A program made the position numbers and the translations under genes. The notes under the pieces were generated by a model. It was not told the DNA's origin. It saw nothing but the letters and a program-made list of their open reading frames with translations, and ran no database searches. Of a stretch of 64,000 nt of DNA, positions 38,912 through 57,392 are shown in pieces; positions within the stretch are counted from its first letter, which is position 1; the number at the start of each line of letters is the position of its first letter. Source of the stretch: Allobosea caraganae (lineage in GTDB: Bacteria; Pseudomonadota; Alphaproteobacteria; Rhizobiales; Beijerinckiaceae); assembly GCF_003351345.1 (NCBI RefSeq), contig NZ_QQTO01000019.1, positions 434,001 to 498,000 of the forward strand, read 5' to 3'.

Positions 38912-38932
38912 TCTGGCATAATGTATGCCAGA
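38912..38932. promoter_or_regulatory. Inverted-repeat operator of the C2-acid regulon, site 1 (divergent sucC)
   Basis: Perfect 8-bp arms TCTGGCAT and ATGCCAGA are separated by AATGT. The core TGGCAT-N5-ATGCCA recurs, exactly or nearly, at 42241, 53002, 57290 and 57376. It lies 44 bp before the divergent sucC start, where an FCD-type GntR repressor could block transcription. Confidence 0.7.
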
Positions 38933-38975
38933 CATAAAACGATGCCGCTCACGGCACGATCAGAGGGAGCGAACC

Positions 38976-40145
38976 ATGAAGATCCATGAGTTCCAGGCGA
39001 AGCAGCTGCTGGCCCCCTATGGGCTGGTGGCGCCGGAGGGCAGCGTCGCCATCACGCCGCACGAAGCCGGCGAAATAGCGCGGCGGCTCGGCGGGCCGGT
39101 GGTGGTCAAGGCGCAGATCCATGCCGGCGGGCGCCAGAAGGCCGGCGGCATCCACCATGTCGACGCCTCCGGTTCGGCCGAGGGCGTCGCGTCGCGGCTG
39201 CTCGGGCGCAAGCTGGTCACGGCCCAGACCGGAGCCCATGGCGAGAAGGTCAAGCGCCTGCTGATCGAGAGCGCCGTTGCGGCAACGCGCGAACTGCACA
39301 TCGCGCTGCTGATCGATTCGTCCTCCGGCGAGCTGATGCTGATCGGCAGCGCCAAGGGCGGCGCCGATATCGAGGAGCAGGCGGCGCGCGGCGAGATCAG
39401 GGTGAACCAGCTCAGGCTCGGCGCCGGGACCGAGCCGCATCGCTACGAGATCGCGGCCTTCATCGCCGGGCTCGGCCTCGAGGGCGCGCTGCACGAGCAG
39501 GGCTGCGCGCTGGTCGACGGGCTCAGGCGCGCCTTCCTCGAACTCGACGCCAGCCTGATCGAGATCAACCCGCTGGCGGTGACGGAGGAGGGCACGCTGG
39601 TCGCCCTCGACGTCAAGATGGTGCTCGACGACAACGCCATGTTCCGGCACCCGGACCTCGCCGTGCTGCGCGACGACGAGGAGGTCAGCGATATCGAGCT
39701 GCACGCGCAGCTCCACCAGCTCAACTATGTCCAGCTCGACGGCAATATCGGGCTGGTCGCGAACGGGGCGGGCCTGGGCCTGGCGACGCTCGACATGGTG
39801 GTCGCGGCCAAGGGCCGGCCGGCGAACTTCATGGATATCCGCACGACAGCGAAGAGCCTCGACATCGCCCAGGGCTTCAAGCTGCTGCTCGACAACCCGG
39901 CGACCAAGGCGATCCTGATCAACGTCCATGGCGGCGGCATGCAGCCTTGCGACACGATTGCCGAGGGGCTCGGCATCGCCGTGCGCCGCTCCGGCCGCTC
40001 GCTGCCGCTGGTGGTCAGGCTCGCCGGCAACAATGCCGATTTCGCCCGCTCGCGCCTGAAGAATTTCGGCTGCGCGATTGTCGATTGCCCGGACATGTGG
40101 ACCGCGGCCGCGAAGGCCGTCGCCATCGCCGCGAAGGGAGCCTGA
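38976..40145 (+). CDS. Divergent succinyl-CoA synthetase beta-like subunit (acid-CoA ligase)
   Basis: This 389-residue ATP-grasp subunit is related to SucC and MtkA (KIHEFQAKQLLAPYGLVAPEG, VVKAQIHAGGRQKAGGI, SLIEINPLAVT). It differs clearly from the canonical SucC encoded at 51472. At residues 286-292 the canonical LDVGGGA is MDIRTTA, and VNIFGGI is VNVHGGG. It probably activates an organic acid other than succinate, for example malate or a C2/C3 acid of this island, with ATP and CoA. The partner alpha subunit follows after 3 bp. A TGGCAT-N5-ATGCCA operator lies just upstream. Confidence 0.85.
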   Translation: MKIHEFQAKQLLAPYGLVAPEGSVAITPHEAGEIARRLGGPVVVKAQIHAGGRQKAGGIHHVDASGSAEGVASRLLGRKLVTAQTGAHGEKVKRLLIESAVAATRELHIALLIDSSSGELMLIGSAKGGADIEEQAARGEIRVNQLRLGAGTEPHRYEIAAFIAGLGLEGALHEQGCALVDGLRRAFLELDASLIEINPLAVTEEGTLVALDVKMVLDDNAMFRHPDLAVLRDDEEVSDIELHAQLHQLNYVQLDGNIGLVANGAGLGLATLDMVVAAKGRPANFMDIRTTAKSLDIAQGFKLLLDNPATKAILINVHGGGMQPCDTIAEGLGIAVRRSGRSLPLVVRLAGNNADFARSRLKNFGCAIVDCPDMWTAAAKAVAIAAKGA

Positions 40146-40148
40146 GCC

Positions 40149-41030
40149 ATGGCCGTGTTTCTCGATCGCGACACCCGCGTCGTCTGCCAGGGCATGACCG
40201 GCTGGGCCGGCACCCACCATGTCGCCCGCATGATGGAATATGGCACGCAGGTCGTCGGCGGCGTCACCCCCGGCAAGGGTGGGCGCTCGCATCTCAACCT
40301 GCCGATCTACGACAGGGTCGCGCAGGCGCGCGCCCAGACTGGTGCCAATGCCAGTATCGTCTTCGTGCCGCCCGCCAACGCTGCTGCCGCGATGCTGGAG
40401 GCGATCGAGGCCGAGATGCCGCTCGTCGTCGCCGTGACCGAGCGCGTGCCGACGCTCGACATGGTCCGCGTCAAGGACGCGCTGAAGGGCTCGCGCACCA
40501 CGCTGGTCGGCGCCAACTCGCAGGGCATCCTGGTGCCTGGCATCGGCAAGCTCGGCGTGATGGCGACGGGCAGCGAGCGGCCGGGCGGCATCGGCATCGT
40601 CTCGCGCTCGGCTTCACTCACCAGTGAGGTCGTCGCCCAGATCACGGCGGTCGGTCTGGGACAATCGACCACGGTCGGCGTCGGCGGCGATCCGATCCAC
40701 GGCATCGGCATGCGCGACTGCCTCGACCTTCTGCTGAAGGATGCCGACACCGAGGGCGTCGTCCTGATCGGCGAGATCGGCGGCACCGAAGAGGAGGAGG
40801 TCGCAGACTACATCGCCGGCCTGAAGCCCTCGAAGCCGATCGTCGCGCTGATCGTCGGTCGCGAGGCGCCGCCCGAGCGCCGCATGGGCCATGCCGGCGC
40901 GCTGACGCTGGGTGGCCGGGGCGATGCCGCGGGCAAGGTCAAGGCGCTGGAGGCGGCCGGCGTGCTGATCGCGCCGAGCGCGCATCTGGTCGGCGAGACG
41001 ATCCGGCAGGCCCTGGCGGGGCGAGGCTAG
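40149..41030 (+). CDS. Divergent succinyl-CoA synthetase alpha-like subunit (acid-CoA ligase)
   Basis: This 293-residue CoA-binding subunit is related to SucD/MtkB. The CoA-binding N-terminus is VVCQGMTGWAGTHHVARMMEYGTQVVGGVTPGKGG. The phosphohistidine is His248 in RRMGHAGAL, where canonical SucD has GHAGAI. It also differs at GANSQGIL, where SucD has GPNCPGI. It therefore keeps the catalytic machinery with an altered acid-binding site. It forms a two-gene operon with the beta subunit; a large inverted-repeat element follows. Confidence 0.85.
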   Translation: MAVFLDRDTRVVCQGMTGWAGTHHVARMMEYGTQVVGGVTPGKGGRSHLNLPIYDRVAQARAQTGANASIVFVPPANAAAAMLEAIEAEMPLVVAVTERVPTLDMVRVKDALKGSRTTLVGANSQGILVPGIGKLGVMATGSERPGGIGIVSRSASLTSEVVAQITAVGLGQSTTVGVGGDPIHGIGMRDCLDLLLKDADTEGVVLIGEIGGTEEEEVADYIAGLKPSKPIVALIVGREAPPERRMGHAGALTLGGRGDAAGKVKALEAAGVLIAPSAHLVGETIRQALAGRG

Positions 41031-41037
41031 GGTCTTT

Positions 41038-41200
41038 CCTTCTCCCTCTTGCGGGAGAAGGTGCCCCAAAGGGGCGGATGAGGGGTCGCGCTGGCCTTTC
41101 CGATCACCGAGCATGTCACAGACCGAATCTTGAAATGTTGAGCGACCCCTCATCCGTCTCGGCTTCGCCGAGCCACCTTCTCCCGCAGGGGGAGAAGGGA
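41038..41200. repeat. Long imperfect inverted repeat (intergenic palindromic element 3)
   Basis: Outer arms around CCTTCTCCC...GGGAGAAGG at 41038-41090 and 41143-41200 mirror each other and share the GGATGAGGGGTCG/CGACCCCTCATCC segment. It sits between the convergent sucD-like and iclR genes. Element 4 at 49299-49460 is a close relative of the same family. Confidence 0.75.
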
Positions 41201-41221
41201 AGGGCGCGGCTCGCTCGCGCC

Positions 41222-42052
41222 TTATTCCCGCCCGGGCAAATGCCCGCCGATCGAGGTGGTGATCTCGTCGGCGGCGCGGCGCACGATCGGGCCGAACTCG
41301 TCGAGCTTGCGCAAGGTGATGCGCACGCTCGGCCCGGAGATCGAGACGCCGGCGATCGGCTCGCCATGCTCGTTGAAGATCGGGGCGGCGACGCAGCGCA
41401 TGCCGAGCGTGCGCTCCTCGTCGTCGATGGCCCAGCCGCGCCGGCGGCTCTCGTCGAGCTCACGCAGCAGCTCGGCGAGATCGGTGCGGGTCTTCTCCGT
41501 GAAGCGTTCGAGCCGGCGCGCGCCGCAGATCTGGCGGACATGGTGCTCGGGAAACTCGGCCAGCAGGGCCTTGCCGACGCCGGACGAGTGCATCGCGCCG
41601 CGGCTGCCGGCGCGGAAGAAGGCGCGCAAGGTGTCGTGGCTCTCGACCTGCGAGATGAAGACGACCTCGCCATTATCCTCGATGCCGAGATTGACGGTCT
41701 CGCCGGTCGCCTGCATCAGCTCGCGCATGGTGAGCCGGCCCATGCTGGCGACGCGGCGGTTGCGCAGGAAGGCCGAGCCGATCTTGAAGGCCTTGATCCC
41801 GATCAGCCAGTAGCCGCGCTCGGTGTCGTTCTGCACGAAGCCGCGGCTCTCCAGCGTCAGCAGGATGCGGTGCACGGTCGAGGGCGAGAAGCCGGATTTG
41901 CGGGCGAGGTCGGTCAGGGTCAGCCCGTCCTCTTCCGCCAGGATCGTCAGCAGCGCCAGGCCGCGGTCGAGCGCCTGCACGGAGCCGCCGGCCAGCGCCG
42001 CCTTCAGCGAACGCGGGCGGCCGCGGGTCTTGCGTTGGTCGGTCAGGGTCAT
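41222..42052 (-). CDS. IclR-family transcriptional regulator
   Basis: This 276-residue regulator has an N-terminal winged helix (SVQALDRGLALLTILAEEDGLTLTDLARKSGFSPSTVHRILLTLESRGFV) and a C-terminal effector domain (GAMHSSGVGKALLAEFPEHHV, GMRCVAAPIFNEHGEPIAGVSISGP). It is divergent from gcl. IclR relatives such as AllR respond to glyoxylate, which fits control of the gcl-hyi-glxR genes. CTGAAA-type inverted repeats in the shared intergenic region are its likely binding sites. Confidence 0.9.
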   Translation of the reverse strand: MTLTDQRKTRGRPRSLKAALAGGSVQALDRGLALLTILAEEDGLTLTDLARKSGFSPSTVHRILLTLESRGFVQNDTERGYWLIGIKAFKIGSAFLRNRRVASMGRLTMRELMQATGETVNLGIEDNGEVVFISQVESHDTLRAFFRAGSRGAMHSSGVGKALLAEFPEHHVRQICGARRLERFTEKTRTDLAELLRELDESRRRGWAIDDEERTLGMRCVAAPIFNEHGEPIAGVSISGPSVRITLRKLDEFGPIVRRAADEITTSIGGHLPGRE

Positions 42053-42109
42053 GGGCGGGGCTCCTTTCGGGTCCAGAAAAGCACGTCCGCCGCCATCTGC
42101 AAATTAAAA

Positions 42110-42218
42110 CTGAAATAGTTTTTCAGAATGCGTGGTCCGCAATTTGTGGAATAAATACAAGATATTGATTTATATAGATTTTCCATCTTACGCAGTCTGC
42201 CGAAAAAACATTCTGAAA
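42110..42218. promoter_or_regulatory. Candidate IclR boxes between iclR and gcl
   Basis: CTGAAA-TAGTT-TTTCAG at 42110-42126 is a perfect 6-5-6 inverted repeat of the IclR-box type. In addition TTTCAGAATG (42121-42130) and CATTCTGAAA (42209-42218) are perfect inverse copies 78 bp apart, suggesting two operators that could be bridged by a regulator tetramer. The region is strongly AT-rich. Confidence 0.5.
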
Positions 42219-42240
42219 TAAATTGACCCCTCGGCGTTTA

Positions 42241-42257
42241 TGGCATCTGGTATGCCA
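42241..42257. promoter_or_regulatory. Inverted-repeat operator of the C2-acid regulon, site 2 (gcl)
   Basis: TGGCAT-CTGGT-ATGCCA, with perfect 6-bp arms and a 5-bp spacer, lies 31 bp before the gcl start. It matches the motif found at four other promoters in the island, so gcl may answer to both the IclR and a GntR regulator. Confidence 0.7.
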
Positions 42258-42288
42258 ATCAACTTGCATCTCGTCGGGAGAATGCGCC

Positions 42289-44061
42289 ATGGCTAAAATG
42301 AGGGCCGTCGAGGCCGCTGTCCGGGTTCTGGAGCGTGAGGGCGTCACGCAGGCCTTCGGTGTGCCGGGAGCGGCGATCAATCCGCTCTACGCCGCGCTGA
42401 AGAGCCGCGAGTCGATCCACCATATCCTGGCGCGCCATGTCGAGGGCGCCTCGCATATGGCCGAGGGCTATACCCGGGCCAAGGCCGGCAATATCGGCGT
42501 CTGCATCGGCACCTCCGGCCCGGCCGGCACCGACATGATAACCGGGCTCTACTCGGCCATCGCCGATTCCATCCCGATCCTCTGCATCACCGGGCAGGCG
42601 CCGCGCGCCCGGCTCTACAAGGAGGATTTCCAGGCCGTCGACATCGAGTCGATCGCCAAGCCGGTGACCAAGTGGGCCGTGACGGTGCGCGAGCCGGCTC
42701 TGGTGCCGCGCGTCTTCCAGCAGGCCTTCCACGTCATGCGCTCGGGCCGCCCGGGTCCGGTGCTGATCGACCTGCCGATCGACGTCCAGATGGCCGAGAT
42801 CGAGTTCGACGACGAGACCTATGAGCCGCTGCCGGTCTACAAGCCGGGCGCCTCGCGCCGCCAGATCGAGAAGGCGATGGCGATGCTGGACTCAGCCGAG
42901 CGGCCGCTGATCGTCGCCGGCGGCGGCATCATCAACGCCGATGCCTGCGATCTCCTGGTCGAGTTCGCCGAGCTGACCGGCGTGCCGGTCGTGCCGACGC
43001 TGATGGGCTGGGGCTCGATCCCGGACGATCACCCGCTGCAGGCCGGCATGGTCGGCCTCCAGACCAGCCATCGCTACGGCAACGCGACGATGCTCGCCTC
43101 CGATTTCGTGATGGGCATCGGCAACCGCTGGGCCAACCGGCACACGGGCTCGATCGAGACCTACACCAAGGGGCGCAAGTTCGTTCACGTCGACATCGAG
43201 CCGACCCAGATCGGCCGCGTCTTCAACCCGGATTACGGCATCGTCTCCGACGCCAAGGCGGCGCTCGAGCTCTTCGTCGAGGTGGCGCGCGAGCGGGAAG
43301 GCAAGGGGCTGCTCAGGAACCGCAGCGACTGGGCCCAGTCCTGCCGCGACCGGCGCGCGACCATGCTGCGCAAGAGCCATTTCGACAACGTGCCGCTGAA
43401 GCCGCAGCGCGTCTACGAGGAGATGAACGAGGCCTTCGGCCGCGACGTCTGCTACATCTCGACCATCGGCCTGTCGCAGATCGCCGGCGCGCAGTTCCTG
43501 CGGGTCAACAATCCGCGCCACTGGATCAATTGCGGCCAGGCCGGCCCACTCGGCTGGACCTTGCCCGCCGCTCTCGGCGTGCGCGCCGCCGATCCCGAGC
43601 GCGAGATCGTGGCGCTGTCGGGCGACTACGACTTCCAGTTCCTGATCGAGGAGCTTGCGGTCGGGGCGCAGTTCAAGCTGCCCTACATCCACGTCGTCGT
43701 GAACAACTCCTATCTCGGCCTGATCCGCCAGGCACAGCGCGGCTTCGACATGGATTTCCAGGTCGGCCTCGCCTTCGAGAACATCAACGCGCCCGATCTC
43801 GCCGGCTACGGCGTCGACCATGTCGCGGTCGCCGAAGGGCTCGGCTGCAAGGCGATCCGGGTCAAGAGCCCGAACGAGTTCAAGGCCGCCTTCGCCCAGG
43901 CCAAGGCCTGGCTCAAGGAGCACCAGGTGCCGGTGGTGATGGAATTCATCCTGGAGCGGGTGACGAACATCGCGATGGGCACCGAGATCGACAACGTCGT
44001 CGAGTTCGAGGAGGTGCTCGATTTGCCTCTGCCCGAGCCCGAGCTGCAGCCCGCTCAGTAA
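42289..44061 (+). CDS. gcl: Glyoxylate carboligase (tartronate-semialdehyde synthase)
   Basis: This 590-residue thiamine-diphosphate enzyme joins two glyoxylate molecules with loss of CO2 to give tartronate semialdehyde. The identifying feature is [16 protein letters not shown] with Val51 where other family members have the cofactor-activating Glu, as in E. coli Gcl. The ThDP motif [29 protein letters not shown] is intact. The ATG at 42289 follows GGGAG. It leads a gcl-hyi-glxR-panE-like-pyk-FAH run on the plus strand. Confidence 0.95.
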
Positions 44062-44095: not shown

Positions 44096-44881
44096 ATGCC
44101 ACGTTTCGCTGCAAACCTGACGATGCTGTTCAACGAGCTGCCCTTCCTGGAGCGTTTCCAGGCGGCAGCCGAGGCCGGCTTCCGCGGCGTCGAGTACCTG
44201 TTCCCCTACGAGTACGACAAGTACGAGCTGGCGGGGCGTTTGAAGCGCTGGAACCTGACGCAGGTGCTGCACAACCTGCCGGCGGGCAATTGGGGCGCGG
44301 GCGAGCGCGGCATCGCGATCCTGCCCGACCGGATCAGCGAGTTCCAGAGCGGCGTCTTCCAGGCGATCGACTACGCCACGCAGCTCGGCTGCAAGCAGGT
44401 CAACTGCCTCGTCGGCATCGCGCCGAAGGATGTCGAGCGCGGCAGGCTGCACGAGACGCTGGTCAACAACCTGCGCTTCGCCGCCCATGAGCTGAACCAG
44501 GAGGGCATCGCGCTCCTGGTCGAGCCGATCAACACCCGCGACATCCCCGGCTTCTTCCTGAACAGTACGAAGCAGGCGCTGGCGCTCCTCGACGACGTCG
44601 AGTCGCCTAACCTCTTCATCCAGTACGACATCTACCACATGCAGATCATGGAGGGGGATCTGGCCCGGACGATCGAGGCCAATCTCGACCGGATCGCGCA
44701 TGTCCAGCTCGCCGACAATCCCGGCCGCAACGAGCCCGGCACCGGCGAGATCAACTTCCCCTTCCTGTATCGGCATCTCGACGCCATCGGCTACGCTGGC
44801 TGGGTCGGCTGCGAATACAAACCCGCACGCACCACGAGCGACGGCCTGACCTGGCTGCCGAGCACCACGTTGGCTGCATGA
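44096..44881 (+). CDS. hyi: Hydroxypyruvate isomerase
   Basis: This 261-residue TIM-barrel enzyme interconverts hydroxypyruvate and tartronate semialdehyde. It opens with MPRFAANLTMLFNELPFLERFQAAAEAGFRGVEYLFPY. The metal and substrate ligands are in LLVEPINTRDIPGFFL, FIQYDIYHMQIMEGD and HVQLADNPGRNEPGTGEINF. It lies 34 bp after gcl. A short 15-bp tandem duplication follows its stop codon. Confidence 0.94.
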   Translation: MPRFAANLTMLFNELPFLERFQAAAEAGFRGVEYLFPYEYDKYELAGRLKRWNLTQVLHNLPAGNWGAGERGIAILPDRISEFQSGVFQAIDYATQLGCKQVNCLVGIAPKDVERGRLHETLVNNLRFAAHELNQEGIALLVEPINTRDIPGFFLNSTKQALALLDDVESPNLFIQYDIYHMQIMEGDLARTIEANLDRIAHVQLADNPGRNEPGTGEINFPFLYRHLDAIGYAGWVGCEYKPARTTSDGLTWLPSTTLAA

Positions 44882-44891
44882 TTTGGGCAGC

Positions 44892-44971: not shown

Positions 44972-45856
44972 ATGACGACTATCGGTTTCATCGGGCTCGG
45001 CATCATGGGCCGCCCCATGGCGGAACACCTGATTGCGGGCGGCCACACGCTGCACGCATCGAGCCACCACAAGGCGGTCGCGCCGGACCTCGTCGCGAAG
45101 GGCGTCACCGTCCACCCGACGCCGAAGGCGGTCGCCGCTGCGAGCGAGATCGTCGTCCTGATGCTGCCCGATACGCCGCAGGTCGAAGAGGTGCTGTTCG
45201 CCACCAACGGCGTCGCGCTCGGCCTGAGCAAGGGCAGCATCGTCGTCGACATGAGCTCGATCTCGCCGATGGCGACGAAGGAGTTCGCCGCGAAGATCGA
45301 GGCTGGCGGCAGCCATTATCTCGACGCACCGGTCTCCGGCGGCGAGGTCGGCGCCAAGGCTGCCAGCCTGACCATCATGGTCGGCGGCCCCGAGGAGACC
45401 TTCGCCAAGGTGAAGCCGCTCTTCGAGCTGATGGGCAAGAACATCACGCTGGTCGGCGGCAATGGCGACGGCCAGACCACCAAGGTCGCCAACCAGATCA
45501 TCGTCGCGCTGACGATCGAGGCGGTCGCCGAGGCCCTGCTCTTCGCCTCGAAGGCGGGGGCCGATCCGGCCAAGGTGCGCCAGGCGCTGATGGGCGGCTT
45601 CGCCTCCTCCAAGATCCTGGAGATTCATGGCGAGCGCATGGTCAAGCGCACCTTCAACCCGGGCTTCCGCATCGGGCTGCACCAGAAGGACCTGAACCTC
45701 GCGCTGCAAAGCGCGCGCGCCATCGGCGTGTCGCTGCCCAACACCGCGACGGCACAGGAACTGTTCAACGCCTGCGTCGCCCATGGCGGCAAGGACTGGG
45801 ATCACTCAGCCATGGTGCGGGCGCTGGAGATCATGGCGAACCACGAAGTCGCCTAG
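44972..45856 (+). CDS. glxR: 2-hydroxy-3-oxopropionate (tartronate semialdehyde) reductase
   Basis: This 294-residue beta-hydroxyacid dehydrogenase reduces tartronate semialdehyde to D-glycerate. The NAD(P) motif is GFIGLGIMGRPM near the N-terminus. The substrate loop is DAPVSGGEVGA and the catalytic lysine lies in GNGDGQTTKVANQI. It is placed directly after gcl and hyi, which settles the choice among the family. Glycerate kinase, needed to enter central metabolism, is not in the window. Confidence 0.93.
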   Translation: MTTIGFIGLGIMGRPMAEHLIAGGHTLHASSHHKAVAPDLVAKGVTVHPTPKAVAAASEIVVLMLPDTPQVEEVLFATNGVALGLSKGSIVVDMSSISPMATKEFAAKIEAGGSHYLDAPVSGGEVGAKAASLTIMVGGPEETFAKVKPLFELMGKNITLVGGNGDGQTTKVANQIIVALTIEAVAEALLFASKAGADPAKVRQALMGGFASSKILEIHGERMVKRTFNPGFRIGLHQKDLNLALQSARAIGVSLPNTATAQELFNACVAHGGKDWDHSAMVRALEIMANHEVA

Positions 45857-45881
45857 CCAAATAAGACAGGGGGAAAAGCCC

Positions 45882-46910
45882 ATGAAGATCTGCATCTACG
45901 GCGCCGGGGCGATCGGCGGCTATATGGGTGTCATGCTCAAGCGCGGCGGGCTCGATGTCTCGCTCGTGGCGCGCGGCGCCCATCTGGAAGCGATCAAAGC
46001 CAAGGGCCTGACCCTCGTCACCAAGACGGAGACGATCACCGAGGAGATGCCGGCGAGCCGCGATCCGCGCGATCTCGGCCGCCAGGACGTGGTGATCATC
46101 GCGCTCAAGGCGCACCAGGCCTGGGAGGCGGCCGAGGAGCTGAAGCCGCTTCTGGGCCCGCAGACGGCGGTGGTCACCGCCCAGAACGGCGTGCCCTGGT
46201 GGTATTTCCACGGCTTGGAAGGGCCCCACGCCGACCTGCGCCTGCGCAGCGTCGATCCGGGCGACCGGCAGTGGAACGCGATCGGCCCCGAGCGCGTCAT
46301 CGGCTGCACCGTCTACCCGGCGACCGAGATCACCGAGCCCGGCGTGATCAAGCATATCTATGGCGACCAGTTCGGCCTCGGCGAGCCCAACCGCCAGGAG
46401 AGCGAGCGGCTGACCCGCTTCGCCGATGCGCTGACCGCGGGCGGGATGAAGCCGCGCCTGTTCTCGGACATCCGCGACGACATCTGGCTGAAGCTCTGGG
46501 GCAATCTCTGCTTCAACCCGATCTCGGCCCTGACCCATGCGACGCTCGACATCGTCGCGACCGAGCCCGGCACGCGGGCGCTCGCCCGCAACATGATGCT
46601 GGAGGCGCAGGAGATCGGCGAGACGCTGGGCGCGCGCTTCCGCGTCGACGTCGACCGCCGCATCGACGGCGCGGCCGGCGTCGGGGCGCATCGCACCTCG
46701 ATGCTGCAGGACCTCGACAAGGGCAGGCCGCTTGAGATCGACGCATTGCTGACCGCCGTCCAGGAGATGGGCCGGCTGGTAAAGCTTCACACTCCCTATA
46801 TCGATGCCGTGCTAGGGCTCGTGCAGCAGATGGGGCGTGCGAAGGGCGTCTACCCAACCTTCCCGGAGCAAAGCTCCGTGGTGGACGATCGCCAGTTGGT
46901 CGCCTCATGA
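45882..46910 (+). CDS. PanE/ApbA-family 2-ketoacid reductase, candidate oxalyl-CoA reductase
   Basis: This 342-residue ketopantoate-reductase-family protein has the NADP motif GAGAIGGYMG at residues 7-16 and conserved AQNGVP. The catalytic Lys and Asn are in WLKLWGNLCFNPISALTHATL. Housekeeping PanE is not expected in a glyoxylate cluster. In Methylobacterium extorquens a PanE-type protein (PanE2) is the oxalyl-CoA reductase that turns oxalyl-CoA into glyoxylate. The same role here would connect frc/oxc with gcl. This is inferred from context. It lies 25 bp after glxR. Confidence 0.8.
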   Translation: MKICIYGAGAIGGYMGVMLKRGGLDVSLVARGAHLEAIKAKGLTLVTKTETITEEMPASRDPRDLGRQDVVIIALKAHQAWEAAEELKPLLGPQTAVVTAQNGVPWWYFHGLEGPHADLRLRSVDPGDRQWNAIGPERVIGCTVYPATEITEPGVIKHIYGDQFGLGEPNRQESERLTRFADALTAGGMKPRLFSDIRDDIWLKLWGNLCFNPISALTHATLDIVATEPGTRALARNMMLEAQEIGETLGARFRVDVDRRIDGAAGVGAHRTSMLQDLDKGRPLEIDALLTAVQEMGRLVKLHTPYIDAVLGLVQQMGRAKGVYPTFPEQSSVVDDRQLVAS

Positions 46911-46973: not shown

Positions 46974-48386
46974 GTGAAAAGAGATCGACGCGCAAAGATC
47001 GTTGCGACGCTCGGGCCTGCGAGCTCGGACGCCGACACCATTCGGCGCCTGTTCCATGCCGGGGTCGACGTCTTCCGGCTGAATTTCAGCCATGGCACCC
47101 ATGAGGACCACCGCGCGCGCTACGACATCATCCGCGGGCTCGAGAAGGAGGCGAATTATCCGATCGCCATCCTCCAGGACCTGCAGGGGCCGAAGATCCG
47201 GCTCGGCGCGGTGCATGGCGGCAAGGTGACGCTGCCCACGGGCTCGACGATCAAGCTCGTGCTCGACAAGGCCGCGAGCGACGCGGAGCACCTGCCGCTG
47301 CCGCATCCCGAGATCTTCGAGGCGGTGCTGCCCGGCCACAACCTGCTCGTCGACGACGGCAAGGTCCGGCTCCAGGTCACCGGCTGCACCAGCGACGTGA
47401 TCGAGGCGAAGGTCATCGTCGGCGGCGTGGTCAGCGACCGCAAGGGCGTCAACCTGCCCGACACCGTGCTGCAGCTCTCGCCGATCACCGAGAAGGACCG
47501 CGTCGACCTCGCCTTCGGCCTGGAACTCGGCGTCGACTGGGTCGCCTTCTCCTTCGTGCAGCGGGCTTCGGACCTGATCGAGGCGCATCAGCTCGTCGGC
47601 GGCCGCGCCGGCGTGATGTCGAAGATCGAGAAGCCCTCGGCGCTCAGCGCCATCGACGACATCATCGCGCTCTCGGACGCGGTCATGGTGGCGCGCGGCG
47701 ATCTCGGCGTCGAGATCCCGACCGAGGACGTGCCGGGCGCGCAGAAGGACCTCGTCCGCCTCTGCCGCCTCGCCGGCAAGCCGGTGATCATCGCGACGCA
47801 GATGCTGGAATCGATGATCCTGACGCCGACGCCGACCCGCGCCGAAGCTTCCGACGTCGCGACCGGCATCTATGACGGTGCCGATGCGGTGATGCTTTCG
47901 GCCGAGAGCGCCTCTGGCCAGTTCCCGATCCAGGCGGTCGAGACCATGGACCGCATCATCCGCCGCACCGAGCAGCACCATTCCTACCGCCCGATCATCG
48001 AGGCGCTGAAGCCGACCATCGAGCCGATGCCGCAGCATGCGGTCGCGGCCGCGGCGGCCGAAGTCGCCGACGTGATCGGAGCGTCGGCCATCGTCGCCTA
48101 TACCGAGAAGGGCACGACCGCCTATCGCATCGCCCGCCAGCGCTCGCCGGTGCCGATCCTCGGACTGACGCCACAGCTGGAGACGGCGCGCCGGCTCGCG
48201 CTGCTCTGGGGCACCTACAGCATCCAGACCGAGGAGGTCTCGGACTACTCGGAGATGGTCGACCAGGCGGTCAAGCAGGCGCTGGCGGCCGACTACGTCA
48301 AGCGCGGCGAGCAACTCGTCGTCGTCGCCGGCATTCCGTTCCGGCGCGCCGGCAGCACCAATAATCTGAGGGTGGTCGCGGTCTGA
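46974..48386 (+). CDS. pyk: Pyruvate kinase
   Basis: This 470-residue glycolytic enzyme has RRAKIVATLGPASSD at the start, the metal and substrate segment MSKIEKPSALSAIDDII, MVARGDLGVEIP and the catalytic ATQMLESMI. It starts with GTG at 46974 after an AGGAT box. In this cluster it would take phosphoenolpyruvate from the glycerate pathway to pyruvate; dedicated pyk copies (for example ttuE) occur in similar hydroxyacid operons. The C-terminal domain is slightly short but complete. Confidence 0.94.
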   Translation: MKRDRRAKIVATLGPASSDADTIRRLFHAGVDVFRLNFSHGTHEDHRARYDIIRGLEKEANYPIAILQDLQGPKIRLGAVHGGKVTLPTGSTIKLVLDKAASDAEHLPLPHPEIFEAVLPGHNLLVDDGKVRLQVTGCTSDVIEAKVIVGGVVSDRKGVNLPDTVLQLSPITEKDRVDLAFGLELGVDWVAFSFVQRASDLIEAHQLVGGRAGVMSKIEKPSALSAIDDIIALSDAVMVARGDLGVEIPTEDVPGAQKDLVRLCRLAGKPVIIATQMLESMILTPTPTRAEASDVATGIYDGADAVMLSAESASGQFPIQAVETMDRIIRRTEQHHSYRPIIEALKPTIEPMPQHAVAAAAAEVADVIGASAIVAYTEKGTTAYRIARQRSPVPILGLTPQLETARRLALLWGTYSIQTEEVSDYSEMVDQAVKQALAADYVKRGEQLVVVAGIPFRRAGSTNNLRVVAV

Positions 48387-49497: not shown

Positions 49498-50223
49498 CTA
49501 TTCGAAGATGTCGGCGTGCTGGTCGACATAGGCCGCGAGGCCGAGCGTGTGGTCGCGCGACAATTGCTCGGCTGCCACGGTGTCGCGGCGCTCCAGCGCC
49601 TCGATGATGTTGAGATGGTCGACGATCGAGCGGCTGGCGCGGTCGTCGCGGCCGATGGTCATCTGCCGGATGCCGCGGACATGCAGCAGCAGGTTGTCGG
49701 TCATCTCGACCAGCAGCTGCGACCGGCTCAGGCCGATCAGCGTCTGGTGGAAGGCGAGGTTGGCCGAGGAGTACTCCGCCGCGTGGTCGGAGGGCCGATG
49801 CGCTTCGCCGAAGGCCCGAAACAGCGTGCGCAGCTCGGCGATCTCGGGGTCGGTGGCGCGCTGGATGGCGAGGCGGACCGCCATGCTCTCCAACGCCGCC
49901 CAGGCCTGGATCATCTCGACGACTTCGTTCTTGGTCTTCTTCAGCACCATGATGCCGCGGCGGGGCAGCGACTTCACGAAGCCTTCCTGTTCCAGCATGG
50001 CGACGGCCTCGCGCACCGGGGTGCGGCTGACGCCGAGCTTCTCGGAGAGCTGGCGCTCGTCGATCCAGGTCGGCTCGCGCGTGCCGTAGATATCCATGTT
50101 GATGATGGCGTGCTTCAGCGCGGCGTAAACCTTGGTCTTGAAGGTCTCTTCCGGCGCGAAGCGCTCAAGCACGAGTTTCTGCGTCACGGTTTCCGAGGAA
50201 GACGTCTGCCTTGGAGCTCTCAA
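49498..50223 (-). CDS. GntR-family (FCD-type) regulator, copy 1
   Basis: This 241-residue regulator has a winged helix at about residues 30-90 (LSEKLGVSRTPVREAVAMLEQEGFVKSLPRRGIMVL) and an FCD effector domain. It is a close paralogue of the regulator at 56539: [17 protein letters not shown] here against [17 protein letters not shown] there. The start appears to be TTG at 50223, with AGGAG 10 nt upstream; GTG at 50187 is the alternative. A perfect 9-3-9 palindrome lies 208 bp upstream of its start. Confidence 0.88.
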   Translation of the reverse strand: MRAPRQTSSSETVTQKLVLERFAPEETFKTKVYAALKHAIINMDIYGTREPTWIDERQLSEKLGVSRTPVREAVAMLEQEGFVKSLPRRGIMVLKKTKNEVVEMIQAWAALESMAVRLAIQRATDPEIAELRTLFRAFGEAHRPSDHAAEYSSANLAFHQTLIGLSRSQLLVEMTDNLLLHVRGIRQMTIGRDDRASRSIVDHLNIIEALERRDTVAAEQLSRDHTLGLAAYVDQHADIFE

Positions 50224-50530: not shown

Positions 50531-51460
50531 TCAGAACGACCATTCGATCTCGGCGCAGCGCTTCTTGATCGCCGGCTCGCCGCTGAGCACCTCGACCAGA
50601 GTCTTGCCGAGCCGGGCAGGCGAGGGCGAGACCCGGATGCCGGCGGCTTCCATCGCCGCGATCTTGTCTTCCGCGCCGCCCTTGCCGCCCGAGATGATCG
50701 CGCCGGCATGGCCCATGCGGCGGCCGGGAGGGGCGGTACGGCCGGCGATGAAACCGACCATCGGCTTGGAGCGGCCACGCCTGGCTTCGTCGCGAAGGAA
50801 CTGCGCCGCGTCCTCCTCGGCCGAGCCGCCGATCTCGCCGATCATCACGATCGATTCCGTCCAGGGATCGGCGAGGAAGAGTTCGAGCACCTCGATGAAC
50901 TCGGTGCCCTTGACCGGATCGCCGCCGATGCCGACCGCGGTGGTCTGGCCGAGACCCTCGCGCGTGGTCTGGAACACCGCCTCATAGGTCAGCGTGCCCG
51001 AGCGCGAGACGATGCCGACCGAGCCCTTCTTGAAGATGTTGGCGGGCATGATGCCGATCTTGCTCTCGCCGGCCGTGACGATGCCGGGGCAGTTCGGTCC
51101 GACGAGGCGCGATTTCGAGCCGGTCAGCATGCGCTTGACCTTGACCATGTCCATCACCGGGATGCCCTCGGTGATGCAGACGATCAGGGGAATCCCGGCA
51201 TCGATCGCCTCGCAGATCGCGTCCGCCGCGCCCGGCGGCGGGACGTAGACGACGGAGGCATCGGCTCCCGTCTTGGCCTTCGCCTCGGCGACCGTGTTGA
51301 AGACCGGCAGGTCGAGATGGGTCTGGCCGCCCTTGCCGGGGGCGACGCCGCCGACCATGCGGGTGCCGTAGGCGACGGCCTGCTCGGAATGGAAGGTGCC
51401 GTTCTTGCCGGTGAAGCCCTGGCAGATGACCCGGGTCGTCTTGTCGATCAGGATAGCCAT
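50531..51460 (-). CDS. sucD: Succinyl-CoA synthetase alpha subunit
   Basis: This 309-residue canonical ADP-forming succinyl-CoA ligase alpha subunit has the CoA-binding [40 protein letters not shown], and the phosphohistidine motif [14 protein letters not shown] tail of about a dozen residues after the usual end ([17 protein letters not shown]) is unusual. The ATG at 51460 is chosen; the longer frame is sucC shadow. It follows sucC by 11 bp. It lies in the oxalate island rather than beside sucAB or mdh, so it may be a second, inducible copy that supplies succinyl-CoA as CoA donor. Confidence 0.9.
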
Positions 51461-51471
51461 GTCGTTTCCCC

Positions 51472-52668
<1,197 letters not shown>

Positions 52669-53195
52669 CGCAATCTCTCTCGGGGTTCGGGGAGAGCGGC
52701 CGGGGCGTTCTGCGGCGCCGGCCATTCGGTGCGGATCAGGGATGGTGTCGGCCGGCGGATGCGGCGAGACGGCAGACGGAGTCGGCGCGTCGATGCGCCA
52801 GCCGGCCGCGAGCGCATGCTCAGGCGGGGCTTGCGTGCCTGCCCGCGCCAGGGCCTGGAAATGCACGGATTGCCGCCCTGCGGGCAGCGAATTGACAGAT
52901 ATCTGGAGCCGGTCGGACCATGCTCAATTTCCTCCCGTGGAAATCGACGCCCCTGATTTTCCCGCTGCGCCGTTGGCCGGCGCATGCATCTGGAGCGATG
53001 TTGGTATTTGGCATGCCAACCCTTCGCCCTGTCAAGCGAAAGATTGGAACTGGAGAATTTTAGTAGGCCATTCCTATTGGAGAGCTTCGGCGCAGGATTG
53101 CCAATGGGCAGGCCGGGCAATTTTCTCCACCCGGCGCGGGCGCAGGACCTGCTTGCGCCCCCTGGCAGGGGAGTCGTCCGGCGGGTGCGCCCCAT
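52669..53195. other. Intergenic region upstream of sucC
   Basis: These 527 bp contain no credible gene. The operator-like site at 53001-53019 is the only clear signal. If transcription of sucCD starts near it, the mRNA has an untranslated leader of about 300 nt, long enough for a regulatory RNA structure, although I see no known riboswitch pattern. Confidence 0.5.
53001..53019. promoter_or_regulatory. Inverted-repeat operator of the C2-acid regulon, site 3 (sucC)
   Basis: TTGGTAT-TTGGC-ATGCCAA has one mismatch between its arms. An overlapping perfect palindrome, TTGGCATGCCAA, lies at 53008-53019. It matches the motif at 38914, 42241, 57290 and 57376 in arm sequence and 5-bp spacing. Confidence 0.65.
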
Positions 53196-53234
53196 AAAAA
53201 AGGGGCGGAGCCTCGTTGCCGAGGGCCCCGCCCC
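53196..53234 (-). terminator. Rho-independent terminator after frc
   Basis: On the minus strand the GC-rich stem GGGGCGG...CCGCCCC, with an inner CCTCG/CGAGG pairing, is followed directly by six T. It lies 40 bp beyond the frc stop and ends the gntR-oxc-frc unit. Confidence 0.85.
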
Positions 53235-53273
53235 AAGTCGCTCTCGAGGAGGTCGAGGAGCGTCTGGGAAACT

Positions 53274-54548
53274 CTATTCGGCTGCGGCCCGGGTCAGGGC
53301 GCCGGTGGCGCCGGATTCCGTGACCGCGGCGATGCGGCGTTCGTCGAATTTCAGTACGTCGCGCAGGATCTCGTCGGTGTGCTCGCCGAGCAGGGGCGAG
53401 CGCGTCACCACGGTCGGGCTGTCGGAGAGCTTGATCGGGTTGCCGACCGAGAGGTACTTGCCGCGCACGGGATGATCGACCTCGACCACCGTGCCGGTCT
53501 CGCGCAGCGACTTCTCCTCGGCGATCTCCTTCATCGAGAGGATCGGCCCGCAGGGGATGTCGTACTCGTTGAGGATGTCCATGGCTTCGAACTTGGTCTT
53601 GGTCATGGTCCATTGCTCGACCCGCGCGAAGATCTCGTTCAGGCGCGGCAGGCGGGCGAGCGGCTTGGCGTAGTTCGGGTCGGTCTTCCAGCCCGGCTCG
53701 CCGATGATGTCGCAGATCTTCTCCCAGACCGGGGCCTGGGTGATGAAGTAGAGATAGGCGTTGGGGTCGGTCTCCCAGCCCTTGCACTTGACGATGCGGC
53801 CGGGCTGGCCGCCACCGGAATCGTTGCCGGCGCGCGGCACGGCGTCGTCGAACGGAATGCCCTCGCCATACTGGCTGTATTCCTTCATCGGCCCGCGCTC
53901 GAGCCGCTGCTGGTCGCGCAGCTTGACGCGGCAGAGGTTGAGCACGCCGTCCTGCATGGCGCAGTCGACCTTCTGGCCGAGGCCGGAATGGGTGCGGTGG
54001 TAGAGCGCCGTGACGATGCCGAGCGCCAGGTGCAGCCCGGTGCCGGAATCGCCGATCTGCGCGCCGGTGACCATCGGCAGCCCGTCGCGGAAGCCGGTGG
54101 TCGAGGCGGAGCCGCCGGCGCATTGCGCGACGTTCTCGTAGACCTTGCAGTCCTCATAGGGGCCGGGGCCGAAGCCCTTGACCGAGGCGACGATCAGGCG
54201 CGGGTTGACCGCGTGGATCTTGTCCCAGGTCAGGCCCATGCGGTCGAGCACGCCGGGGGCGAAGTTCTCGACCAGCACGTCGCAGATCTTCACCATCTCC
54301 CAGAGCACTTCCATGCCCTTGGGGTTCTTGGTGTCGAGCGTGATCGAGCGCTTGTTGTGGTTCAGCATCGTGAAGTAGAGGCTGTCCGCATCCGGCACGT
54401 CGCAGAGCTGGCTGCGCGTGATGTCGCCCGTGCCCGGGCGCTCGACCTTGATCACGTCTGCGCCGAACCAGGCCAGCAACTGCGTGCAGGTCGGTCCCGA
54501 CTGGACATGGGTGAAGTCCAGAACCTTGACGCCTTCGAGCGCTTTCAT
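53274..54548 (-). CDS. frc: Formyl-CoA:oxalate CoA-transferase
   Basis: This 424-residue class III CoA-transferase makes oxalyl-CoA from oxalate and formyl-CoA (or succinyl-CoA). The N-terminus [33 protein letters not shown], the nucleophile Asp167 in [13 protein letters not shown] and the glycine loop SGGGQPG match Frc. It lies downstream of oxc in the same direction, with a hairpin and a palindromic repeat in the 164-bp gap, and is followed by a strong terminator. Confidence 0.94.
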
Positions 54549-54585
54549 AGGTCCCCTCCCTTGTTCTTCTCGCTAGCGCCGGCCG

Positions 54586-54622
54586 CCTTCAGATGGAATC
54601 GCGCAGCGCTTCCATCTGAAGG
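54586..54622. repeat. Perfect 13-bp hairpin between oxc and frc
   Basis: Arms CCTTCAGATGGAA and TTCCATCTGAAGG pair perfectly across an 11-nt loop. No T-run follows in either direction. It may act as an RNA-processing or attenuation structure that sets the oxc to frc ratio. Confidence 0.7.
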
Positions 54623-54650
54623 TCGAATCCGCCTCTCATCAGCAGTTAGA

Positions 54651-54693
54651 GCAGGATTCATGCGAAAACCGGTTTCCACTTTTCGCATCCTGC
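54651..54693. repeat. Rhizobiales-type palindromic element (copy 2)
   Basis: The stem is GCAGGA...TGCGAAAA against TTTTCGCATCCTGC with loop CCGGTTTCCAC and a small bulge. The core matches the element at 32132-32177. It abuts the 3' end of oxc and lies in the oxc-frc gap. Confidence 0.78.
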
Positions 54694-54712
54694 CCTGGCG
54701 ACGTCCGTCCCC

Positions 54713-56449
54713 TTATTTTTTGCGGACGACGCTCTGCGGGTTGAGGTTGCCGATGCGGCCGCTCTCGGTGCCGGCGGACGGGTCGATCACGGCGTTGATG
54801 AGGGTCGGCTTGCCCGAATCCATCGCCTCGTCGACGGCGCGCTTCAGCTCGTCGGGGGTCGTGACGTTGACGCCGACGCCGCCGAAGGCCTCCATCATCT
54901 TGTCGTAGCGCGAGTCCTTGACGAAGACGGTGGTGGCGACGTCGCCGCCGTTCGGATTGACGTCGGTGCCGCGGTAGATGCCGTTATTGTTGAAGATGAC
55001 GATGCAGACCGGCAGGTTGTACCGGCAGATCGTCTCGACCTCCATGCCGGAGAAGCCGAAGGCCGAATCGCCCTCGACCGCGAGCACCGGCTTGCCGGTC
55101 TCGATCGCGGCGGCGACGGCGAAGCCCATGCCGATGCCCATGACGCCCCAGGTGCCGACGTCCAGGCGCTTGCGCGGCTGGTACATGTCGATGATGCCGC
55201 GGGCGAGGTCGAGCGTGTTGGCGCCCTCGTTGACCAGGATCGCGTCCGGCCGCTCCTTGATGACCGTGCGCAGCGCGCCGAGCGCGCCGTGGAAGTCCAT
55301 CGGAGCGGTGTTCTTCATCAGGCGCGGCGCCATCTTGGCGATGTTCTCGTCGCGCTTGGCGTTGACGGTCGCGACCCAGTCGGCCGGCGGGGCCTGCCAC
55401 TTGCTGCCCATGCCCTCAAGGAGAGCGGAGACGCAGGAGCCGATATCGCCGACCAGCGGGGCGACGATCTCGACGTTGGAGTCCATCTCCTTGGGCTCGA
55501 TGTCGATCTGGATGAACTGCTTGGGGGCGTCGCCCCAGGTCTTGCCCTTGCCGTGCGAGAGCAGCCAGTTGAGGCGGGCGCCGACCAGCATGACGACGTC
55601 CGAATCCTTCAGCACGGTCGAGCGCGCGGCGCCGGCCGATTGCGGATGGGTGTCGGGCAGCAGGCCCTTGGCCATGCTCATCTGCAGGAACGGGATGCCG
55701 CTCGTCTCGACCAGCGCGCGGATATCGTCATCGGCCTGCGCGTAGGCCGCGCCCTTGCCGAAGATGATCAGCGGGCGCTTGGCGCCCTTCAGCACGTCGA
55801 GCGCGCGTTTGACCGCGGACGGGGCGGGGATCTGGGCCGGAGCGGCGTCGATGACCTTGACCAGCGACTTCTCGCCGGCCTCGGCATCCATCACCTGCGA
55901 GAACAGCTTGGCCGGCAGGTCGAGATAGACGCCGCCGGGGCGGCCGGAGACGGCGGCGCGAATCGCGCGGGCCACGGCGATGCCGATATCGGCGGCGTGC
56001 AGCACGCGGAAGGCGGCCTTGCAGAGCGGCTTGGCGATGGCGAGCTGGTCCATCTCCTCATAGTCGCCCTGCTGCAGGTCGACGATCTCGCGCTCGGAGG
56101 AGCCGGAGATCAGGATCATCGGGAAGCAGTTGGTCGTGGCGTTGGCGAGCGCGGTGAGGCCGTTGAGGAAGCCGGGCGCCGAGACGGTCAGGCAGATGCC
56201 GGGCGCCTTGGTCAGGAAGCCGGCAATCGCGGCGGCGTTGCCGGCGTTCTGCTCGTGGCGGAACGAGATGACGCGGATGCCCTCGGCCTGGGCCATGCGG
56301 CCGAAATCCGTGATCGGGATGCCGGGCACGCCATAGATCGTCTTGACGCCATTGAGCTTGAGCGCGTCGATGACGAGGTGAAAGCCGTCCGTGAGCTCGC
56401 GCTCGGCGTCGACGGCATTTCCGGTGATGCTTTGAACTACGGCGGACAT
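54713..56449 (-). CDS. oxc: Oxalyl-CoA decarboxylase
   Basis: This 578-residue thiamine-diphosphate enzyme converts oxalyl-CoA to formyl-CoA and CO2. The activating Glu66 is in [12 protein letters not shown]. The cofactor motif is [67 protein letters not shown] is the typical Oxc opening. It lies between gntR copy 2 and frc on the same strand, which gives a regulator-oxc-frc operon for oxalate use. Confidence 0.95.
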
Positions 56450-56538
56450 TCCGCTCCCTCCCTCAAAATCGTTCTTGAAGCTGGTTGTTTCTTGGGTCGT
56501 GTTGCTTTGGGTCGCGTCGCTACTGGTGATGGCTTGAT

Positions 56539-57225
56539 TCAGGCGAGCTGGACGAATTGCTCGACATGATCCCGGAGTTTGAGCGTGTGCTCGCGTACGA
56601 GCCGCTCGGCACGCTCGCCGTTGCGCGCTTCCAGCGCCTCGACGATTTCCTTGTGGTCGATGATCGAGCGGCGGGCCCGGTCCTTCTCGAAGATCGTGCG
56701 CTGCCGAATCGCGCGCACATGCGTGAACAGGCCATGCGTGATGTCGCTGATCAGCCTGCAGCCGGAGAGCGCGATGATGGCGGCGTGGAAACGGATGTTG
56801 GCGTCCGAATACTCGCCCATATGGGCGTCGAGATCGGCGCTGTCGAAGGTGTCGACGAGCTTGTGCAGGCTGGCGATCTCGTCATCCGAGGCGACCTGGG
56901 TGACCAGGCGCGCGGCCATGCTCTCGAGCGCGGCCCAGACCGTGATCATCTCGATGACCTCGGCCTTGGTCTTGCGCACGATGAAGATGCCGCGGCGCGG
57001 CGCGATTCGGACCAGGCCTTCCTGCTCGAGCTGGGCGAGGGCCTCGCGCAGCGGCGTGCGGCTCACGCCGAACTGGAGCGACAGGGCGCGCTCGTCGAGC
57101 CGCAATTCGGCGCCGGCGTCATAGATCTTCATCGTGCCGATCGCGACCTTCAGAGCGTCGTAGGTACGGCTCTTGAGGCTCTGGACCTCCTCGATCGGCT
57201 GAATGTCTAAGCGCGCTCTGGCCAT
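56539..57225 (-). CDS. GntR-family (FCD-type) regulator, copy 2; candidate master regulator of the C2-acid island
   Basis: This 228-residue regulator has its winged helix at about residues 25-85 ([36 protein letters not shown]), followed by an FCD domain with the His ligands in FHAAIIAL and HKEIVEAL. The ATG at 57225 is preferred; the longer frame runs through an operator site. It is divergent from tctA and lies upstream of oxc-frc. Two inverted repeats of the shared motif (57290, 57376) lie in the divergent region. This makes it the best candidate to bind all five sites, with oxalate, glyoxylate or a CoA ester as a possible effector. Confidence 0.88.
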
Positions 57226-57289
57226 TGCGAGCCCGGTTCCCCTGCTTGGTATTTTTGACCGCATGGGCGCAGCGTGCATCCCATCTCGG

Positions 57290-57306
57290 TGGTTTCTGGC
57301 ATACCA
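57290..57306. promoter_or_regulatory. Inverted-repeat operator of the C2-acid regulon, site 4 (gntR-oxc-frc)
   Basis: TGGTTT-CTGGC-ATACCA has one arm mismatch and the same 5-bp spacing as the other sites. It lies 64 bp before the gntR start. A further half-site, TTGGTAT, occurs at 57246-57252. Confidence 0.55.
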
Positions 57307-57375
57307 TATAACGAAACAAACGACACGCGCAATGGGCATTTTACTGCAATAAAATTGCTGCGACGCACCCTTAAA

Positions 57376-57392
57376 TGGCATATTGCATGCCA
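57376..57392. promoter_or_regulatory. Inverted-repeat operator of the C2-acid regulon, site 5 (tctA)
   Basis: TGGCAT-ATTGC-ATGCCA has perfect 6-bp arms and lies about 100 bp before the tctA start. It is 70 bp from site 4, so a dimer at each could control the divergent promoters together. Confidence 0.7.

Follow-up and report, generated by a model that had tools for sequence, protein, structure and literature searches.

What holds together the genes for oxalate and glyoxylate use in the alphaproteobacterium Allobosea caraganae? The question is raised by a 64,000-nucleotide stretch of its genome (contig NZ_QQTO01000019.1, positions 434,001 to 498,000; hereafter the window, numbered from its first base), in which five copies of a 17-bp motif stand upstream of genes for CoA ligase subunits (sucC1 and sucC2), glyoxylate carboligase (gcl), a GntR-type regulator that heads the oxalyl-CoA decarboxylase and formyl-CoA transferase genes (oxc-frc), and a tripartite transporter (tctA). 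Two GntR proteins with an FCD domain, GntR-A and GntR-B, are encoded in the window. The comparisons described below argue strongly that the motif is a shared oxalate operator read by an FCD-type GntR protein, and the five sites very probably serve a single oxalate regulon as operators recognized by GntR-B, GntR-A or both.

Five probable operator sites in the window

An earlier note on this DNA had described the motif as TGGCAT-N5-ATGCCA, exact at operators 1, 2 and 5 and with a single mismatch at operator 3 (TGGTAT), and all four were verified in the sequence. Operator 4 (TGGTTTCTGGCATACCA), which had been credited with one arm mismatch, has three to this pattern and one to the degenerate form TGGYAT-N5-ATRCCA, and contains a perfect inner palindrome, TGGCATACCA. 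The distances to the start codons, as re-read here (Table 1), agree with the earlier values within a base; for operator 5 the distance depends on which of two possible start codons of tctA is taken.

The five sites are real and are not chance occurrences in the window. Exact matches to the degenerate pattern number four in the window and none in 60 first-order Markov copies of it, and the single one-mismatch site compares with a mean of 0.17 per copy; two-mismatch sites, at five against 2.9 expected, are uninformative. Of the four exact sites, two are followed by sucCD pairs and one by the gcl run; the fourth lies in the gap between gntR-B and tctA. When the window was scanned at 12 bits or more with a matrix of 26 sites from other genomes, hand-picked from the better-scoring sites of the motif search described below, exactly the five reported sites matched; the earlier note had likewise seen no further copy in the promoter regions that it read. 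The 12-bit cut-off, like the 15-bit cut-off used below, was chosen by us. Across the whole genome (6.17 Mb), TGGCAT-N5-ATGCCA occurs exactly at six places, with none for the reversed control. The genome scan that the earlier note had proposed as a check was run with the degenerate pattern, and the motif proved rare: nine exact places on four contigs against none for the reversed control, and 28 places against 2 when one mismatch is allowed.

The probability that these are chance palindromes, or RNA hairpins or terminators, is accordingly negligible. TGGCAT-N5-ATGCCA with two mismatches does occur about 2.3 times per shuffled window, and two distal sites (L016:9031 and L018:9371) were flagged as terminator-like. 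The exact sites are absent from the Markov copies and from the reversed genome control, scans of four window regions flagged no window site as a terminator, and the motif is conserved across orders; both explanations were rejected on these grounds.

Architecture and conservation of the proposed operator

Expectation maximisation (EM) without a prior, applied to 66 non-redundant gntR upstream regions (from 69 stretches, near copies removed), converged on TGGYATACCANATRCCA, a 10-bp palindrome with GT-N2-AC spacing and a third half-site, in which the TKGT/ACMA palindrome of the FadR (FCD) subfamily is recognizable at the level of the motif. Among exact outer-arm sites of the named relatives, 33 of 55 carry CCA or TGG in mid-spacer, which completes an inner palindrome, so that the 5 bp between the arms frequently belong to the operator itself; in this genome the feature is seen at some sites only. 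The 5-bp spacer of the earlier note is thus not neutral. The full operator is predicted to consist of the palindrome TGGYATRCCA and a half-site, ATRCCA, 7 bp further on, the two arms originally recognized being the first and third half-sites.

Relatives were collected by a named-genome scan with a GntR alignment, from which the best 80 of 582 loci were kept (L181-L191 being distant outgroups). The nearest of these 80 is in Bosea sp. Root483D1 (GntR 89% identical), whose locus (L112) also contains the 17 bp of operator 5 unchanged. The motif lies 5' of gntR-oxc-frc in many Hyphomicrobiales, in Rhodobacterales and in some loci of Gammaproteobacteria, and the reversed pattern is nearly absent. 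On 20 stretches of relatives the foreign-site matrix gave 73 matches, compared with none reversed and 6 shuffled. The strict pattern TGGYATRYNNNATRCCA occurs exactly at 49 places in 20 gntR-bearing relatives (reversed control, 0 forward and 2 reverse): 36 stand at most 600 bp 5' of window-type genes, 5 precede a fused CoA ligase and 3 a PAS protein, where 13 places without a tblastn match were named by eye from N-termini. No known oxalate gene was tied to the other five (G092:C76:47392, G008:C1:4137846, G049:C7:177502, G049:C2:733347 and G092:C165:8546). A variant operator of unchanged length with one arm altered, TGGTATNTNNTATATCA, was found in 14 loci, mostly of Burkholderiales, before some oxc, frc, panE, oxlT and gntR genes (e.g. 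L141, L142, L147, L153, L157 and L180).

First genes in runs bear the site and later genes do not. In the non-Burkholderiales set, a site was found upstream of 66 of 81 gntR genes, 19 of 26 for OxlT, 9 of 18 for sucC, 8 of 20 for TctC, 7 of 31 for TctA and 5 of 16 for FdhB, and of none of the genes for SucD (0/16), FdhA (0/10), Hyi (0/4) and GlxR (0/3). The reversed control gave 4 for gntR, 2 for sucC and 0 for the rest. These per-gene counts, like the oxc/frc-locus and ligase counts given below, use tblastn starts and include the loci of this genome, near-identical Bradyrhizobium loci and the duplicate contig L158/L221.

The probable reader of the operator

In a drawn sample of 119 genomes of the family, the 24 with a GntR homologue (E<=1e-30) have a mean of 2.83 exact sites and the other 95 a mean of 0.58, with control-pattern totals of 3 and 12, respectively. 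The association of site number with gntR presence has a Mann-Whitney p of 1e-9 (3e-9 leaving out this genome), values that serve only as guides because the genomes and loci are related. The oxc model cut-off was exceeded in 21 of the 119 genomes, 20 of which have the GntR. In a tree of 107 regulator rows, the motif (at least 15 bits, within 400 bp) lies 5' of 72 of 96 main-clade rows and of 2 of 11 rows outside.

The adjoining BhcR-type IclR regulator, divergent from gcl, was considered as another reader. Paracoccus BhcR binds the bhc promoter, with binding weakened by glyoxylate and strengthened by oxalate (PMC11323563), and 2 of 11 BhcR genes lie by a site. The corresponding figure for gntR is 66 of 81, gntR presence predicts site number, and the motif has the GT/AC boxes of GntR operators (PMC4494728); BhcR was rejected as the reader, and a regulator other than GntR is very improbable. 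Between the BhcR-type gene and gcl, at 42119-42220, we observed by eye a separate inverted repeat, TTTCAGAATG / CATTCTGAAA, which may be an IclR operator, in which case gcl may have two switches.

The earlier note had named a single FCD GntR, probably the protein encoded at 56539-57225 (GntR-B). The EM motif, the tracking with gntR and the tree make an FCD GntR much the strongest candidate; the reader need not be a single protein, since the paralogue at 49498 (GntR-A) also groups with motif-bearing regulators. The two are 49% identical and much alike in their helix regions. Both exceed the Pfam cut-offs (FCD 24.3, GntR 27), placing them in the FadR subfamily, and neither qualifies as NanR (GntR-B 73.1 and GntR-A 60.3 bits, model cut-off 260) or as phnR_burk (TIGR03338; 114.6 and 96.1 bits, cut-off 271.5). 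In GntR-B, N143, H147, H191 and H213 do not vary among 16 aligned sequences. They align with the D/H/H/H of 3sxy, residues that bind metal in that protein, and are candidates for the Asp/Asn and three His ligands of the metal-binding FCD type.

That GntR-B alone reads the operators, with GntR-A having another target and merely being carried behind sucCD2, would fit the position of GntR-B at the head of oxc-frc, with two of the operators in the promoter region of its gene, the lack of a site directly before GntR-A (1.6 bits), and the lack of own sites in the nearest tree relatives of GntR-A (L213_17142, L114_3376, L122_3347 and L165_9971). We nevertheless regard it as unlikely. GntR-A is encoded by the last gene of the sucC2-sucD2 run behind operator 3, and it falls within a well-supported set of 10 tree rows, five with the motif, and a wider set of 25 rows, 20 with the motif, which includes oxc-linked regulators of other genera. 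Because GntR-A groups with such operator-bearing regulators, both proteins may bind, and binding by both paralogues is somewhat favoured.

Several findings weigh against an oxalate operator read by GntR. The relatedness of genomes and loci limits the p-values, and the matrix input includes Bosea and other sites letter-identical to window sites, L112 being a close relative. A site is lacking in 15 of 81 gntR genes outside the Burkholderiales set, and within 350 bp of gcl it is present for one of six gcl genes in the loci examined, the window's own. Three genomes with GntR homologues and no oxc (G043, G079 and G106) have 0, 1 and 1 exact sites. The closest relatives of gntR-B (85-87%), in G019 and G059, come with 1 and 0 exact sites, and both have a pair of near-sites 5' of gntR. 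No site was found upstream of the gntR-A-sucCD1-panE runs in L114 and L122 (6.5 and 7.1 bits), nor any sigma-70-like promoter at the seven operator regions scanned.

Sites elsewhere in the genome

The earlier note had pictured one 18-kb island. The operator is indeed common to oxalate and glyoxylate genes; five of the nine exact sites, however, lie outside the window, on three other contigs (Table 1). The regulon is thus larger than the island, since these sites precede two OxlT genes, a PAS-frc2 run and a probable formate dehydrogenase. The last, on contig C42, is named from its gene pair: the best model for the beta subunit is NuoF (360.2 bits, under the cut-off of 558.65), the alpha subunit has molybdopterin domains, and together they presumably form an NAD formate dehydrogenase. 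For several genes at genome-wide sites the name was assigned by eye from the N-terminus.

Outside the window there are 18 one-mismatch places, of which 13 are within open reading frames and four are promoter-proximal, the placement of the remaining one, C3:16563, being ambiguous. One of the four precedes an HPP-domain membrane protein (L019:9572-10255) that may be a transporter; the oxalate locus of G049 also encodes an HPP relative (45%), at L212:14077. The small PAS protein before frc2 is found behind an exact operator both here (L016:6117-6644, contig C7) and at L212:16391-16831. Similar PAS proteins occur in eight of the loci searched and stand behind sites in G049, G008 and G083, the last two by eye.

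Table 1 Proposed operators and genes of the window, and operator-linked features elsewhere
Feature	Position	Strand	Sequence or neighbour	Assignment	Score
Operator 1	38914..38930	.	TGGCATAATGTATGCCA; 45 bp 5' of sucC1	Operator	26.7 bits (matrix built from other genomes)
Operator 2	42241..42257	.	TGGCATCTGGTATGCCA; bhcR-gcl gap, 31 bp 5' of gcl	Operator	26.7 bits
Operator 3	53002..53018	.	TGGTATTTGGCATGCCA; 333 bp 5' of sucC2 (minus strand)	Operator	25.4 bits
Operator 4	57290..57306	.	TGGTTTCTGGCATACCA; 64 bp 5' of gntR-B	Operator	21.1 bits
Operator 5	57376..57392	.	TGGCATATTGCATGCCA; gntR-B/tctA gap, 72 or 99 bp to tctA start	Operator	26.1 bits
sucC1	38976..40145	+	40% to SucC2	Divergent succinate--CoA-ligase-like beta subunit	NF001913 385.9 bits, cut-off 370
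sucD1	40149..41030	+		Alpha subunit	NF004230 340.9 bits, cut-off 336
bhcR-type gene	41222..42052	-	Divergent from gcl	IclR-type regulator, BhcR type	NF045644 373.4 bits, cut-off 350
gcl	42289..44061	+		Glyoxylate carboligase	TIGR01504 1166.7 bits
hyi	44096..44881	+		Hydroxypyruvate isomerase	TIGR03234 390.9 bits
glxR	44972..45856	+		Tartronate semialdehyde reductase	TIGR01505 401.1 bits
panE-type gene	45873..46910	+		PanE/ApbA-type reductase	NF005089 482.4 bits
Pyruvate kinase	46974..48386	+		Pyruvate kinase	NF004886 657.7 bits
gntR-A	49498..50223	-		FCD GntR paralogue	Pfam FCD 88.6, GntR 44.6 bits
sucD2	50531..51466	-			NF004230 460.1 bits
sucC2	51472..52668	-	82% identical to another sucC at C5:80297		NF001913 579.3 bits
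frc	53274..54548	-		Formyl-CoA transferase	TIGR03253 708.9 bits
oxc	54713..56449	-		Oxalyl-CoA decarboxylase	TIGR03254 1026 bits
gntR-B	56539..57225	-	Heads oxc-frc	FCD GntR, leading candidate reader	Pfam FCD 87.9, GntR 51.4 bits
tctA, tctC, tctB	57465-59006, 59116-60180, 60294-60812	+		Tripartite transporter	Pfam TctA, TctC, TctB
Exact site	C7:5943		Before small PAS protein and second frc (frc2)		frc2 720.8 bits to TIGR03253
Exact sites	C7:9031 and C7:9107		Before OxlT antiporter		647.7 bits to TIGR04259
Exact site	C22:57781		55 bp before second OxlT		641.4 bits
Exact site	C42:185370		108 bp before fused NuoE/NuoF-like subunit, then molybdopterin subunit
One-mismatch site	C11:751490 (L019:9491)		64 bp before HPP-domain membrane protein		24.4 bits
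One-mismatch site	C41:94858 (L228:4859)		34 bp before permease-like gene, TauE/SafE-type by eye		19.0 bits
One-mismatch sites	C22:345873, C41:276627		Promoter-proximal		13.0 and 14.8 bits
Fused ligase	L223:12882-15032			Candidate CoA ligase; relatives e.g. in L207, L209-L211, L213, L215-L217, L219, L224, L112, L113, L166-L177

Pathway and proposed mechanism of control

The operator-linked genes can be arranged into a pathway in which OxlT and Tct would import oxalate, Frc and Frc2 activate it, Oxc decarboxylate the thioester and formate dehydrogenase oxidize the formate released. Tct is a putative oxalate carrier. The PanE/ApbA-type enzyme is a candidate oxalyl-CoA reductase and, taking ApbA2 from Cupriavidus necator as the model, would yield glyoxylate; ApbA2 is a PanE-type CoA-acylating glyoxylate dehydrogenase (PMC7486775). 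This glyoxylate would be assimilated through gcl, hyi and glxR. The operator sits on differing glyoxylate outlets, as seen from the runs of two relatives. In G036 the site is just before panE, with the run continuing gcl-hyi-glxR by eye. In G019 bhcR is on one side of the site and on the other is a run with glyA (620.2 bits), an aminotransferase (635.5 bits to BhcA, cut-off 650) and, by eye, panE and a sucCD pair. Beyond tctB, the protein encoded at 61097-62950 (minus strand) has many glycine/aspartate-rich repeats by eye, resembling calcium-binding RTX repeats.

A GntR dimer is proposed to bind the palindrome, possibly joined by further subunits at the third half-site, and to keep the genes repressed as long as its FCD domain holds no small carboxylate, the ligand being oxalate or one of its derivatives. 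On release, OxlT and Tct (uptake), Frc and the CoA ligases (activation) and Oxc (decarboxylation) would rise together, and formate oxidation and glyoxylate assimilation (PanE, Gcl) would rise in the same response. FadR-subfamily proteins bind small carboxylic acids (PMC4494728), and by this family analogy oxalate or a derivative would be the natural effector. A repressor released by such a ligand is the reading that we moderately favour, because repression is the habit of the family.

An activator, or a regulator acting both ways, would account for the absence of a consensus promoter, since weak promoters under an activator would look so, and for sites up to 333 bp from start codons. The FCD GntR members NanR (PMC8012715) and GlcR (PMC11323563) are repressors, and activation appears improbable beside a ligand-lifted repressor.

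CoA ligases behind the operator

The operator in front of CoA ligases suggests ATP-driven activation of oxalate. In addition to SucCD pairs, relatives encode a fused nucleoside diphosphate-forming acyl-CoA ligase (716 aa; Pfam ATP-grasp_5, CoA_binding_2, Succ_CoA_lig and Ligase_CoA_2) whose nearest solved structures are 4-hydroxybutyrate and 3-hydroxypropionate CoA ligases, and which is a candidate oxalate or formate CoA ligase. It is present in 13 of 22 oxc-bearing family genomes (counting G007, whose oxc is split over contigs) and in none of the 97 others; at the cut-off used for the family genomes it was not found in this genome. The operator lies within 400 bp 5' of 23 of 30 fused ligase genes (22 of 29 without one duplicate contig), with none for the reversed control. 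In G077 the operator is 44 bp before sucC in a run that reads mdh-sucCD-sucA by eye.

SucCD1 exceeds the NF001913 and NF004230 cut-offs by a narrow margin and falls under both TIGR subfamily cut-offs. Malate--CoA ligase was rejected for both pairs (SucC1 335 and SucC2 485.8 bits against the NF010647 cut-off of 604).

The leader between operator 3 and sucC2 (52669-53001) is unusually long, at 333 bp; in G051 and G010 this place is taken by the fused ligase. The order in G051 is operator, ligase, sucC, sucD, gntR, compared with operator 3, leader, sucC2-sucD2-gntR-A in the window. A 19-bp stretch containing operator 3 is identical to the G051 operator, and this and the sucC start (43 bp) are the only parts of the leader region that match G051. 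Loss of a ligase may be the reason for the long leader; a tblastn search of it for a ligase remnant gave no match better than E 0.5.

We tentatively suggest, as a possibility well short of even, that in oxalate-degrading proteobacteria a dedicated ATP-dependent CoA ligase, fused or SucCD-type, makes oxalyl-CoA or supplies the CoA donor. Its part would be CoA priming, in which it makes good the thioester that is lost each time oxalyl-CoA is drawn off by the PanE-type reductase to provide glyoxylate for growth, since Frc and Oxc by themselves do no more than recycle formyl-CoA. A fused ligase, sucC or both accompany 43 of 77 oxc/frc loci. Against this proposal stand the 34 of 77 loci with neither ligase type (flanks being limited) and the 6 of 77 with both, which shows that one build does not preclude the other. 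Proteins of the SucC1 type (E<=1e-85) occur in only 3 of 119 family genomes, of which this one alone has oxc. YfdE and UctC gave no product from succinyl-CoA and oxalate (PMC3720670). In Pseudomonas fluorescens, succinyl-CoA synthetase and an oxalate CoA-transferase are reported to be run to gain ATP (PMC2752808), and by analogy a ligase running backwards would fit equally well.

Comparison with known systems

The enzymology of oxalate degradation is well established. A conserved 17-bp operator with a candidate reader makes it possible to recognize the oxalate regulon in the sequence of such genomes, could be a first step towards an oxalate sensor, and marks out as candidate members the fused CoA ligase, the SucCD pairs, the PAS protein before frc2 and the HPP membrane protein. 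The regulator family, the 2-nt spacing and the extra half-sites (PMC4494728) are known already, as are the oxalate enzymes. Among the literature matches listed, which do not cover subscription literature, there was no oxalate GntR operator and no regulator with operator for oxalate breakdown.

In the survey of the FadR subfamily (PMC4494728), TKGT/ACMA boxes stand 2 nt apart, with a weaker extra half-site 7-12 nt away in 13 groups. The present operator is alike in its boxes, spacing and extra half-site, and differs in that the third half-site is as conserved as the palindrome arms in the EM motif and that the targets are oxalate genes; a text search of that paper did not find the word 'oxalate'. 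NanR of Escherichia coli (PMC8012715) is likewise an FCD GntR with a half-site, GGTATA, close to that found here, and several half-sites per operator. It differs in that its half-sites form direct repeats, (GGTATA)3, and in an N-terminal extension of 32 residues; the core predicted here is a palindrome with one added half-site.

The C. necator oxalate pathway (PMC7486775) has frc-oxc, the PanE-type ApbA2 and a glycerate pathway with gcl in common with the window; a text search of its main text found no GntR named, and the parts available describe no shared operator. In Paracoccus denitrificans (PMC11323563), a GntR repressor, GlcR, serves the entry step and an IclR regulator, BhcR, serves glyoxylate use, and in the window, too, gntR is accompanied by a BhcR-type gene. 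GlcR has glycolate as its effector and glycolate oxidase as its target, whereas the GntR sites described here are also found before the gcl run.

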